The position numbers and the translations under genes are program-made. The notes below the pieces were generated by a model that saw only the letters and a program-made list of their open reading frames with translations, was not told where the DNA came from and did no database searches. From the IMG/VR virus record IMGVR_UViG_3300025009_000111, positions 1 to 60,390 of that record: DNA of 60,390 nt; one strand, given 5' to 3'. Below, in pieces: positions 3,653 through 60,390 of this stretch (positions are counted from its first letter, which is position 1; every line of letters begins with the position of its first letter). The stretch is from a virus.

Positions 3653-3871
3653 TCACGGTTCCACCTCGAATTCTTTAATGATAAAAGACGTACATTCCCA
3701 CAATACTGACAACGTTTCATACTTTGTACCGTATCCCACTTCCCTTTCCCATACCTCCCACTGTTTCTTCCGCATCGCTTTGTACGCCCCCAACTTCGTG
3801 GAATGAACGGATACGGGTTCTGGTCTACCTTCATGTGTAAACCAGCAATGACAAAATACATAGACCTTCAT
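3653..3871 (-). CDS. Small hypothetical protein, last gene of leftward operon
   Basis: A 72-residue basic protein rich in Trp, Tyr, Lys and Glu. The start ATG overlaps the stop of the Rad50 C-half gene upstream (3868) by four bases, typical of coupled phage genes, which is the main support for it being real. The sequence 'CHCWFTH...STKLGAYKAM' resembles small phage proteins of unknown function. No motif assigns a role. It is the distal end of a leftward operon that starts far upstream. Confidence 0.65.
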   Translation of the reverse strand: MKVYVFCHCWFTHEGRPEPVSVHSTKLGAYKAMRKKQWEVWEREVGYGTKYETLSVLWECTSFIIKEFEVEP

Positions 3872-4479
3872 TTCACCACACTTACCCCATCCACTTTTTC
3901 AATCGTGAATGCCTTGTCTGCACATTCCTGCAACCGGGGATCGTGCGACACTACTACGATCTGAAGCCCCATCCGGTGGGACGTCTCCCGAAGCAACTCA
4001 CTACACCGTTCCTGTAGATTCCGGCTTACAAACCGGAATGGTTCGTCAAGGAATAGTACCGGACGGGTGGGACTGAGGGACCACAGAGCAACACGTAATG
4101 CGAACGCTGCCACATCTGCACATCCCCCTCCAGCTTCCGTAATGGGATCAAAGGAATTACCATTACGGGTAAAGTTGAGATCACATTCTGTTTTCCCTCT
4201 TCGCAGGACAAATTTACAGTCCATGTGATAGGGTTCGTCCCACACTGCCCGCATTGCTCTGCTAACGATTTCACTGATGTGTATCTCCATCGTTGCCTGG
4301 GTTTCCTGTGCCACCCTCTGAATCACGCTTTGTGCTAGGTTCCCCCTAACGGCTTCCTCCTCATACCCCTGCTTTATCAATCGGTCACGTTCCCGCTGTT
4401 CCGTCAATAAATCCATCCTGCCCCGTGCCCGTTGAACCCGCTGGGACAGTTCCCCGATTCGTTCATTCAGACTGGCCAT
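3868..4479 (-). CDS. Rad50/SbcC/gp46-like ATPase, C-terminal half
   Basis: A 203-residue protein with only the C-terminal half of an SMC/Rad50 ATPase. It has a coiled coil at about 2-75, a signature-like segment 'EAGGGCADVAAF' (115-126), Walker B 'PVLFLDEP' at 140-147 with catalytic Glu146, and an H-loop 'VVVSHD' with His179. There is no Walker A and no zinc hook here. The Walker A half is encoded separately at 5772-6677, with the Mre11-like gene between. Start chosen at 4479 because GGAGG lies 7 bases upstream. The two halves presumably assemble with the nuclease into an end-processing complex for recombination-dependent replication. Confidence 0.85.
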   Translation of the reverse strand: MASLNERIGELSQRVQRARGRMDLLTEQRERDRLIKQGYEEEAVRGNLAQSVIQRVAQETQATMEIHISEIVSRAMRAVWDEPYHMDCKFVLRRGKTECDLNFTRNGNSFDPITEAGGGCADVAAFALRVALWSLSPTRPVLFLDEPFRFVSRNLQERCSELLRETSHRMGLQIVVVSHDPRLQECADKAFTIEKVDGVSVVK

Positions 4480-4711
4480 ACTTTGCCTCCATCTCTTCCA
4501 CAAGCTTGGTCAAGGCTTGTTCATCCTCTTTGATTCCCGCTTCCTCCTTGGCTAACAACTTCTCAGCACTGGCAAGATCCTTCACTTTGAACTCCTTTAA
4601 GAGCTGTGCTTGTATAACGTCCCGCTCTGCTTCGGCTTTTCTTTGATCGTGTTCGAGACTTTCGATTTTCTGCTTGAGATCCATCAATCGCTTTGCAACT
4701 TGGATATTCAT
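4463..4711 (-). CDS. Short coiled-coil protein between Rad50 halves
   Basis: An 82-residue, highly charged protein that is almost entirely predicted coiled coil (Lys, Glu, Gln and Leu heptads), with no cysteine. It overlaps the Rad50 C-half start by 17 bases. Its position suggests it is a detached piece of the Rad50 coiled-coil arm or a subunit of the same complex; this is inference from context. An in-frame TTG three codons earlier, directly behind gaggaagg, could be the real start. Confidence 0.6.
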   Translation of the reverse strand: MNIQVAKRLMDLKQKIESLEHDQRKAEAERDVIQAQLLKEFKVKDLASAEKLLAKEEAGIKEDEQALTKLVEEMEAKYGQSE

Positions 4712-4862
4712 CGCTGTCAAAATCCTTCCTCAGTGGTATGCCCTGTCTTTTCCTGAAGTACTGGTCACGGGAGAAATCCCGCAAGAACCCTATCACGATC
4801 CACATTCCCTCACGTCGGAACATCATTTCATTTCCGACACGCTCGGGTTTGTAGTTACCCAT
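4563..4862 (-). CDS. Possible small protein overlapping coiled-coil gene
   Basis: A 99-residue frame starting in an ATG that overlaps the stop of the Mre11-like gene, with GGAGG nine bases upstream, a strong initiation signal. Residues 1-60 look protein-like (aromatic and charged residues, 'MWIVIGFLRDF'). The tail after about residue 65 is a Ser/Arg/Lys-rich stretch lying out of frame over the coiled-coil gene (about 149 bases of overlap). Either the overlap is real or the reading frame has been shifted by a mutation that once ended the protein earlier. Function unknown. Confidence 0.45.
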   Translation of the reverse strand: MGNYKPERVGNEMMFRREGMWIVIGFLRDFSRDQYFRKRQGIPLRKDFDSDEYPSCKAIDGSQAENRKSRTRSKKSRSRAGRYTSTALKGVQSEGSCQC

Positions 4863-5775
4863 GGTCTAGTGCCTCCATAATCAGTTCCCGCACTTCCTTT
4901 TTCACTGGGTTGGCGTCTAGGAACCGTTCCATTTGTTCCCTGAAGTTTAACCGACGTAGATGTGCGGTATTTCCCTGTAGATATTCCACGAACGCGGAAC
5001 CTTCAGCCTTGGGGGTTTCCTTGGGTTCCTTGAACACGTCTTTTTCAATAGGCACAGGGATGTGTTCCCACTTTAGCGTTCGTGTTGTACTTGGCAGGAA
5101 TTCCACCAAGTACACGGCAGGTACGAAGTCGCGCTGATCGGACGTCTGCCGGGTAAGGGAACCGGGGTTGATCAGGGTTCGTCCATTTACCAACGTAACG
5201 AACTGTTGGTGGTTGTCCCCCGTGAGGATCAACTGCGCGTGAGGGTTCTGTTCCAGCAGTTCCTTGCTCGTGATCCCCTTGCAACCGGGGAACGGGGGCT
5301 TGCCCTTCTGGAAGACCATCCGGTGATGGATCTGAATGGTGGGGTAGGGTTCTTCCGTTTTCTGGCACGGTTCGGTTTCCCCGTACCCGTAGATTTCGAT
5401 GGCGCAATGATTCCCCATTTGTTTGGCGTATGATGTGCCGCAATACTGGTTTATCACTCCCCCTTGGAGCATAACCCAGAAAGCAGAACGGTCAATGTCT
5501 GCCATACGGTGATATGGCAGATCATGGTTCCCGGGGGCACAGTACATATTCCGTATTAGCCACAAGTGCTCCAATGCCCATCCCGTAAGCCAGTGATCGT
5601 CCGTCCTCCATTTGTGAAACACGTCACCAGCACAAAGGACAGTACACGGACTATTCTCCAACCGGAGATGCCCCAACCACTCTAACTTCCTCCGCTGGAC
5701 TTCCCGGAAATCATCTGTCCGGCAGTCCGGTTGATCGTCCCTCAGGTGCATGTCACCAACGAGTAGGAATTTCAT
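4855..5775 (-). CDS. Mre11/SbcD/gp47-like nuclease subunit
   Basis: A 306-residue calcineurin-like metallophosphoesterase. The metal-binding motifs are in order: Gly-Asp-Met-His (7-10), Gly-Asp-Val-Phe (50-53), Gly-Asn-His-Asp (81-84), His149/His150 and Gly-Asp-Asn-His (185-188). These are the phosphoesterase motifs of the SbcD/Mre11/T4 gp47 family, which processes DNA ends with a Rad50-type ATPase. The gene overlaps the Rad50 N-half (ATGA at 5772-5775) and lies between the two Rad50 halves. The C-terminal 90 residues would be the capping and ATPase-binding region. Together these support a phage end-resection complex. Confidence 0.9.
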   Translation of the reverse strand: MKFLLVGDMHLRDDQPDCRTDDFREVQRRKLEWLGHLRLENSPCTVLCAGDVFHKWRTDDHWLTGWALEHLWLIRNMYCAPGNHDLPYHRMADIDRSAFWVMLQGGVINQYCGTSYAKQMGNHCAIEIYGYGETEPCQKTEEPYPTIQIHHRMVFQKGKPPFPGCKGITSKELLEQNPHAQLILTGDNHQQFVTLVNGRTLINPGSLTRQTSDQRDFVPAVYLVEFLPSTTRTLKWEHIPVPIEKDVFKEPKETPKAEGSAFVEYLQGNTAHLRRLNFREQMERFLDANPVKKEVRELIMEALDHG

Positions 5776-6677
5776 AGCGACCCCTTTCCGTCACACAGTG
5801 GGCAGGTTTCTGGTTTAAGTTTGTTCCATTGTTCCTTAGCATCAGTAAGTGTCATTTGAATACGCTCAATGGTTTCCATCTTCCCCCGGCACCGCGTGAC
5901 CAGTTCCAAAAGGTTGTCTCTTTGTCGGTATCGCTCCCGGAGTTGTTCCAGACCCGTCAAGGATGCGTCTAGCGTTCGTTTCAGGCCACGTAGGTGGGCA
6001 AAATCCTTTAAACGATCCGAAACCCATACTAAGTCCTGGGCTACCCCCTGTAAACGGTTTTTGGCCAGTTTACGCGTCTTTATTTGACTATATGCTTGAT
6101 TGATGGATTCCACGGAACCCTCAGCGGCAGGAACCCAGTGGAGCTTCGTCAGGGCTTCCGTACCAGAATGTATCGCACGTTCTGTGACCTTTGCCCCATT
6201 CTCTGCCACCCGGATCTTGGACGCCACGAAAGACAAAGCCTTGTCGATGTCAGACAACCCAACGACCTCATTGAGCTTTCGACCCACTTCCCCTGGGCTA
6301 TCTGCCAGCAGGAAGTCAATGTTGCGCTGCCCCTGTAGATTGACATGGGAGAGGTTCAGGGCATTCAGGATGGGTTCAGGTACGGTCGTGCCAACAGCCC
6401 GGAACTCTTCTCCGTTCAACAAGTAACGGCTGTCCTTGCCCTTCACCCGTCCGATTACCGTGCCGTCCGTCAGCCGGATACGACCACGGGCTTCCGTCTC
6501 CCCGTGTCGGGTATACCTGTCCCCCAGGGGACGTCCCTCCGCAAGCCACTGAACGAACCGGATCACGGAGGACTTCCCGGCATCCGACGTCCCCACGATC
6601 ACGTTCAAATGGGGGTCCAATTCCAGAACGGTGTTCAGGTGTCCCTGGAAGTTTACAAGTTGGATTTTGTCAATCAT
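5772..6677 (-). CDS. Rad50/SbcC/gp46-like ATPase, N-terminal half with zinc hook
   Basis: A 301-residue protein. Walker A 'GTSDAGKSS' lies at 29-37 and the ascending coiled coil at about 170-285. The protein ends six residues after a zinc-hook motif Cys-Pro-Leu-Cys (292-295). In intact Rad50/gp46 proteins the hook is at the middle of the chain; here the gene stops just past it and the descending half is a separate gene (3868-4479). Start chosen at 6677 because the ATG overlaps the upstream stop and begins directly with the conserved 'I.LVNFQGH' strand. An earlier in-frame ATG would add 59 residues lying over the upstream gene. Confidence 0.88.
   Translation of the reverse strand: MIDKIQLVNFQGHLNTVLELDPHLNVIVGTSDAGKSSVIRFVQWLAEGRPLGDRYTRHGETEARGRIRLTDGTVIGRVKGKDSRYLLNGEEFRAVGTTVPEPILNALNLSHVNLQGQRNIDFLLADSPGEVGRKLNEVVGLSDIDKALSFVASKIRVAENGAKVTERAIHSGTEALTKLHWVPAAEGSVESINQAYSQIKTRKLAKNRLQGVAQDLVWVSDRLKDFAHLRGLKRTLDASLTGLEQLRERYRQRDNLLELVTRCRGKMETIERIQMTLTDAKEQWNKLKPETCPLCDGKGSL

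Positions 6678-54835: not shown

Positions 54836-58381
<3,546 letters not shown>

Positions 58382-58817: not shown

Positions 58818-60390
<1,573 letters not shown>

Follow-up and report, generated by a model that had tools for sequence, protein, structure and literature searches.

The cassette and its products

The window analysed here is a 60,390-base virus record, IMGVR_UViG_3300025009_000111, to which all cassette coordinates refer. On its minus strand four neighbouring genes were found that probably encode a four-subunit Mre11-Rad50 end-processing complex, with Rad50 itself, a DNA-break repair ATPase that is ordinarily a single long chain, encoded as three polypeptides. The first of them is the N-half of the split Rad50 (5772..6677, 301 residues), assigned by sequence motifs, Pfam, PHROGs, AlphaFold and Foldseek, and formed by an N-lobe, an arm and a C-terminal zinc hook. 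The Walker A motif GTSDAGKSS lies at 6567..6593, where G29, G34 and K35 are near-invariant across 48 N-halves, and the arm comprises the predicted helices 141-178 and 182-287 (5817..6257), a repeat region of 47-residue periodicity delimited from the AlphaFold secondary structure and the self-similarity at lag 47. The putative hook CPLC (5793..5804; C292 invariant and C295 conserved in more than 90% of the 48 N-halves) is placed six residues from the C-terminus, and the chain ends CPLC-DGKGSL-stop, just as the first-pass annotation of this DNA had described it.

The start of the Mre11/SbcD-like nuclease gene (4855..5775, 306 residues) overlaps the N-half stop by 4 bases. The protein was recognised by Pfam, and the putative metal ligands D8, H10, D51, H84, H151 and H189 are invariant in nine relatives; GDNH stands where GHxH is usual. 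Among the Mre11-like proteins, 25 of 43 from viruses have this GDxH variant and 21 of 43 have GQHD in place of GNHD, and none of the 33 genomic ones has either. The third gene encodes K, a small coil protein of 82 residues with helices 3-41 and 46-81 (4463..4711), whose family is present in 103 of the 112 loci described below. It overlaps by 17 bases the gene of the C-half (3868..4479, 203 residues), which consists of a short returning helix and a C-lobe and was identified by motifs, Pfam, PHROGs and similarity to Pyrococcus Rad50. The ABC signature region GGG (4123..4131; G117 and G118 invariant, G119 above 90%), the Walker B motif VLFLDEP (4039..4059; D145 and E146 invariant) and the H-loop histidine of SHD (3943..3945; H179 invariant) are conserved in 11 C-halves. 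The Walker B/H-loop half is thus a separate gene, beginning 1.3 kb from the N-half stop with the Mre11-like and coil genes in between, and the coordinates first given for this arrangement hold. No CxxC was found in the C-half sequence, so that the hook is confined to one half as had been pointed out; this is not odd for Rad50, in which one CxxC per protein is the normal state. A 99-residue open reading frame (ORF) at 4563-4862, between Mre11 and K, had no relative among the first loci examined and may be a small gene or a chance ORF.

Pfam assigns the N-half to AAA_23 (3e-9), the Mre11-like protein to Metallophos (3.5e-8) and the C-half, weakly, to SMC_N (5e-4). In PHROGs the N-half falls in phrog_16465 (6e-28) and the C-half in phrog_15167 (1.7e-27, a 211-position family); these carry only exonuclease and ATPase labels and the database does not join them as halves. 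Matches to NCBIfam Rad50 models cover the front part of the N-half and, in the C-half, its lobe, and the N-half of Aedoeadaptatus ivorii aligns to Rad50 model residues 3-453 of 878, which correspond to the lobe, the ascending arm and the hook. The nearest solved sequences are those of Pyrococcus Rad50, for which several structures have N and C on separate chains (A and B in 1f2t, 1ii8 and 3qkr), and in the structural literature on this protein separately made halves are reportedly able to form the ATPase core. The AlphaFold model of the N-half (predicted local distance difference test score, pLDDT, 87.7) places the N-lobe, the two helices and then the hook in succession, and with it Foldseek retrieved Rad50 and SMC heads, Pyrococcus Rad50 N-lobes being the nearest solved folds. 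The K model (pLDDT 95.6) contains two helices joined by a short turn, which may form a closed hairpin or lie extended, and a Foldseek search with it gave nothing useful (1 match at E 9.6).

The products therefore share with Rad50/SbcC a Walker A motif inside the N-lobe of a Rad50 fold, a signature, Walker B and H-loop in a Rad50-type C-lobe (by sequence only), a CxxC at the far end of the arm that by sequence and position is a putative zinc site, and an Mre11-type nuclease encoded alongside. They depart from it in that the lobes and both arm strands are not on one polypeptide, and in that the arm strands, compared by length only, are roughly matched in the window and not in long-armed relatives.

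Recurrence and conservation of the break

A tblastn search of 50,697 phage records returned only five that match each half. The layout in Bacillus phage vB_BboS-125 is similar: its N-half, of 471 residues, ends in a hook and is accompanied by a 78-residue K and a 211-residue C-half, with an unannotated Mre11 ORF downstream; the excerpt of its genome paper mentions neither SbcC nor a split (PMC6375668). In Microbacterium phage Magritte the genes for the halves are widely separated (L004:284-934 and L005:4001-5053). In IMG/VR the C-half as query gave 8 loci and a C-half alignment 65; viral contigs scanned with the N-half alone yielded no relative, the C-half proving the better probe. Of 71 loci, iterated profiles then detected N in 63, Mre11 in 64, K in 63 and C in 69; the set excludes the duplicate contigs L008-L015 and the window (L007). 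At two loci (L068:704-2791 and L074:1166-3253) an ORF of 695 residues has an Mre11-like match towards its beginning and may be a fusion with another domain.

The cassette is also present in bacterial chromosomes. When 84,980 species genomes were scanned, 23 loci were found, of which 22 belong to Bacillota and one to Cloacimonadota according to title or taxonomy; all possess K, C and Mre11, and 22 possess an N-half (L092 has none in the stretch examined). The search for the same split in other phages, which the first-pass annotation had suggested, was thus answered by its recurrence in divergent phages and Bacillota chromosomes. In Bacillota the C-half family was found in 66 of 398 sampled genomes, and in the phylum of the Cloacimonadota locus in 3 of 124.

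Conservation of the break was analysed in 112 loci, comprising 6 phage records, L016-L103 and L142-L159, with the short L104-L141 left out. Removal of near-copies left 79 distinct C-halves, 72 of them with an N-half in the stretch examined. A CxxC lies 3-30 residues from the C-terminus (median 13) in 68 of the 72 distinct N-halves; among the remaining ORFs of 250 or more residues in the same loci, taken as a control, 20 of 711 have one within 35 residues of theirs. Gene orders in the 79 distinct loci, M standing for the Mre11-like gene, are NMKC (34), MNKC (26), NKCM (7) and MKNC (2), the other 10 being incomplete, and N and C never occur in one ORF at any locus except in the three armless Mre11 fusions described below. 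A tree of 80 C-halves groups the window with other viral members in a clade of 30 (100/98) and places the chromosomal forms with Brevibacillus-type prophages, the bootstrap being not settled. Because all members are split, the break is probably older than the spread of the family. The cassette is real, recurrent and old, and apparently undescribed.

The genomic context is that of replication and recombination. In the window a block of such genes on the minus strand occupies the region between about 22.9 and 3.9 kb with the cassette inside it, and the neighbours include RecA-like, FEN1-like, RuvC-like and clamp-loader-like proteins (read by eye). Core Bacillota chromosomes carry the order recA-Mre11-N-K-C-rny, and in Aedoeadaptatus ivorii the cassette stands between recA and rny among ordinary core genes, whose names were read by eye from translations. 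RecA is a direct neighbour at 23 of the 41 bacterial loci examined, and at 21 of these RNase Y is on the opposite side of the cassette. Elsewhere in the window, long proteins starting with collagen-like GPTG repeats (54836-58381 and 58818-60390) are probably tail fibres.

We also looked at canonical SbcC in the genomes with the cassette or a fusion. Fifteen of 16 are without a strong SbcC; the only strong match (E 1.5e-37, in a 1186-residue frame) is in G390, whose cassette has no RecA beside it. In G182 the match covers the N-lobe only (3.5e-16), and the remaining genomes have either no SbcC match or matches no better than those expected of SMC, RecN or RecF, which were identified by frame length. 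Among the matches listed for Bacillota carriers up to G113, one of 20 (G102) also has SbcC against 6.2 expected from 37 of 119 genomes (hypergeometric 0.003, the genomes being related), so that mutual avoidance between the split cassette and SbcC in this phylum is no more than indicated. In the core Bacillota chromosomes with the cassette, canonical SbcC is for the most part lacking.

Arm modules and the small coil protein

The arm of the N-half appears, from its sequence, to be built of 47-residue repeats, that is, to be modular. In 22 N-halves of chromosomal length (474-490 residues) leucine-type positions repeat at lag 47 (0.62), with a smoothed autocorrelation of 0.56 at lag 47 and 0.45 at lag 94. 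In 41 viral arms, including that of the window, lag 47 ranks first among 40 lags and 0 of 1000 heptad-phase shuffles reach it; no lag-47 peak is present in 28 SbcC arms. Single internal gaps of 47 or 48 residues separate the N-half pairs L157/L147, L157/L144, L093/L100 and L145/L152, the difference of 47 in L040/L041 is spread over two gaps, and other related pairs show gaps of 40-44 or split gaps. Over all N-half pairs with at least 33% identity the gap sizes are broad, 47 being a local peak with 10 of 239 gaps, outnumbered by 27 and 30 with 21 and 22 gaps, and for this reason the evidence for modules is taken from the autocorrelation, the shuffles and the closely related pairs. The repeats can be seen in the arms of, for example, L098, L100, L147 and L157. 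Tropomyosin is a precedent for long-range repeats in coiled coils. As to arm length, SMC arms are described in an excerpted report as functional at certain lengths only (PMC5344682).

In three Bacillota genomes Mre11, N-lobe and C-lobe are joined in one chain of 684-700 residues (L138:3152-5254, minus strand; L139:2764-4818, plus strand; L140:3083-5170, minus strand), apparently in place of the split cassette; between the lobes there is next to no arm, and a hook is lacking. The existence of these three single-chain fusions shows directly that the Mre11, N-lobe and C-lobe products belong to one machine. A whole-genome search for K gave a match at the cassette in six of six split genomes (E at most 7e-9), together with weak second matches in three of the split genomes (up to 2.7e-6); in the three fusion genomes no comparable match was found (none in two; in the third 0.0016, within frames of 137 and 194 residues). 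The presence of K at the cassette in split genomes, without a comparable match where the arm is lacking, supports the view that K goes with the arm.

The lengths of K range from 75 to 126 residues (median 83), and those of the N-half from 295 to 530 in complete ORFs, one broken ORF of 109 aside. Since the N-half varies while K is constant, K is not a partner strand matched in length to the entire arm. When K was compared with 28 SbcC arms, the returning arm scored higher in 21 (mean 5.1 bits against 0.96 for the outgoing arm), and reversed K, used as control, preferred the returning arm in 23 of 28, more weakly (0.98 against -1.49 bits). This resemblance is suggestive and was not relied on, the reversed control carrying part of the same bias. 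Of the early proposal that K is a detached arm segment, the association with the arm was borne out, K directly preceding the C-half and being absent from the three armless-fusion genomes; that it was simply cut from the returning arm is less certain, in view of the N-half lengths against about 80 residues for K and the weak resemblance to the returning arm of SbcC.

Proposed complex and comparison with known systems

Since the split is genuine and recurrent, with the break conserved at the hook, a working complex must assemble from separate arms, as the first-pass annotation had argued. We propose, with high confidence, that the lobes of the N-half and the C-half would associate without a covalent link to form one ABC ATPase head. 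On binding ATP two such heads would form a dimer, with the Mre11-like nuclease seated at the base of the arms, a partnership in which our confidence is likewise high. The arm would be mostly the N-half helix, and its C-terminal CPxC may pair around one zinc with the CPxC of a second N-half, the hook then being a chain end and not the tip of a hairpin; the hook is reported to act as a constitutive dimerisation module (PMC6969161). In the pairing of hooks, and in K as an arm subunit which would lie along the arm or clamp it in replacement of the missing returning strand, we have moderate confidence. The complex may serve DNA-end resection or processing for recombination-dependent replication in the phage, and may substitute for SbcCD in Bacillota chromosomes.

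Several observations weigh against this proposal. Three distinct loci hold N, Mre11 and C without a detected K, and N-half length is not correlated with K length (Spearman -0.06, p 0.60, n=69). The hook is missing from four of the 72 distinct N-halves (L023, L063, L067 and L150, of which L150 is a broken ORF) and the N-half of Magritte is also without CxxC. There are weak PADLOC matches to Lamassu LmuB and MADS mad3, and a simple 1:1:1 rebuilding of the paired arm does not fit the long-armed members.

This last point bears on how the arm is completed. One possible reading, which we regard as doubtful, is that K and the short helix of the C-half are the returning arm cut in two and paired 1:1:1 with the N arm. 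The lengths in the window nearly fit (about 145 residues for the N arm against 82 plus about 45), K directly precedes the C-half and scores better on the SbcC returning arm; however, the reversed control shows the same preference more weakly, and N-halves reach 520-530 residues without K and C lengthening enough. It is also conceivable, if only tentatively so, that the distal N arms of two protomers form a parallel rod closed by the hook, with K as a local regulatory or clamp subunit. A rod would account for a variable N arm with a constant K, and the two confident helices of the K model are compatible with a hairpin, although the absence of K where the arm is absent, which fits, is not specific to a rod. 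Several K per arm is an idea of low confidence, yet it best fits a modular N-half with a constant K. In its extended and rather unlikely form the returning arm would not be a polypeptide at all, copies of K tiling the N-half arm at one per one or two 47-residue modules. If so, the number of modules in the N-half would set the arm length, and the ring could be opened or lengthened by removing or adding small subunits.

Two further explanations question the complex itself. A normal Rad50 broken by frameshift or insertion, and hence decayed or mis-assembled, is hardly credible. Fission can begin in this way, and the orders MKNC and NMKC show that other genes have moved in; nevertheless 79 distinct C-halves of phage and bacterial origin share the break with motifs intact and K conserved, and complete chromosomes also carry the split. 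Sequencing error, already held to be unlikely in the form of a frameshift, and gene decay are thus excluded as explanations of the present-day genes. A system directed against phages or plasmids, SMC-like in the manner of Lamassu and not devoted to end processing, is very unlikely. LmuB models match the N-half (8e-11) and the C-half (0.004) in PADLOC, and mad3 matches the C-half (1e-14). Against it stand the Mre11-like partner with its putative metal ligands, the replication neighbours in the phage and recA and rny in chromosomes, and the retained Walker B glutamate, whereas LmuB generally has an E to Q change according to the excerpted source (PMC10586767). Neither was an effector gene seen: the PADLOC scan, made on cassette proteins only, gave no match to an Lmu effector.

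We thus return to the Mre11-Rad50 complex with a Rad50 in three polypeptides as the preferred reading. No description of a Rad50/SbcC split at the hook was found among open-licence PMC papers judged by titles and abstracts, and the variant is apparently undescribed, its modular arm being a second surprise. A natural, old and widespread version cut at the hook implies that covalent joining of the arm strands at this point is not required. It offers a system for asking about the roles of hook and arm, with a free-end hook, an arm changing by whole modules and a K that can be omitted, and it supplies a likely Mre11-Rad50 complex for Bacillota seemingly without SbcCD. It also links phrog_16465 and phrog_15167, which contain the N-half and C-half families and so far are listed only as ATPase or exonuclease.

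Among known systems, the Mre11/Rad50 (SbcDC) fusion proteins of viruses, plasmids and bacteria are another unusual architecture of the same complex, and represent the opposite change, fusion and not fission; the word "split" is absent from the excerpt of their description (PMC3175470). The DNA polymerase III and RNA polymerase subunits that jumbo phages encode in split form are likewise separate chains thought to reassemble, although they are other enzymes, and the same paper, in excerpt, handles SbcC as one protein (PMC7824862). LmuB of Lamassu (611-position model) is a short-armed Rad50 relative, on which the N-half maps to 5-338 and the C-half to 409-590, leaving about 70 positions where K would sit; it differs in being a single chain with other partners and, in the excerpted account, with the usual E to Q in Walker B (PMC10586767). 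The cassette also resembles Rad50/SbcC with Mre11/SbcD, including T4 gp46/gp47, in the ABC lobes, the Walker and signature motifs, the CxxC hook, the long arm and the Mre11 partner. In contrast to these, Rad50 is here distributed over the N, K and C genes, the hook is the end of a chain, and the arm of the N-half carries 47-residue repeats which the 28 SbcC arms do not have.

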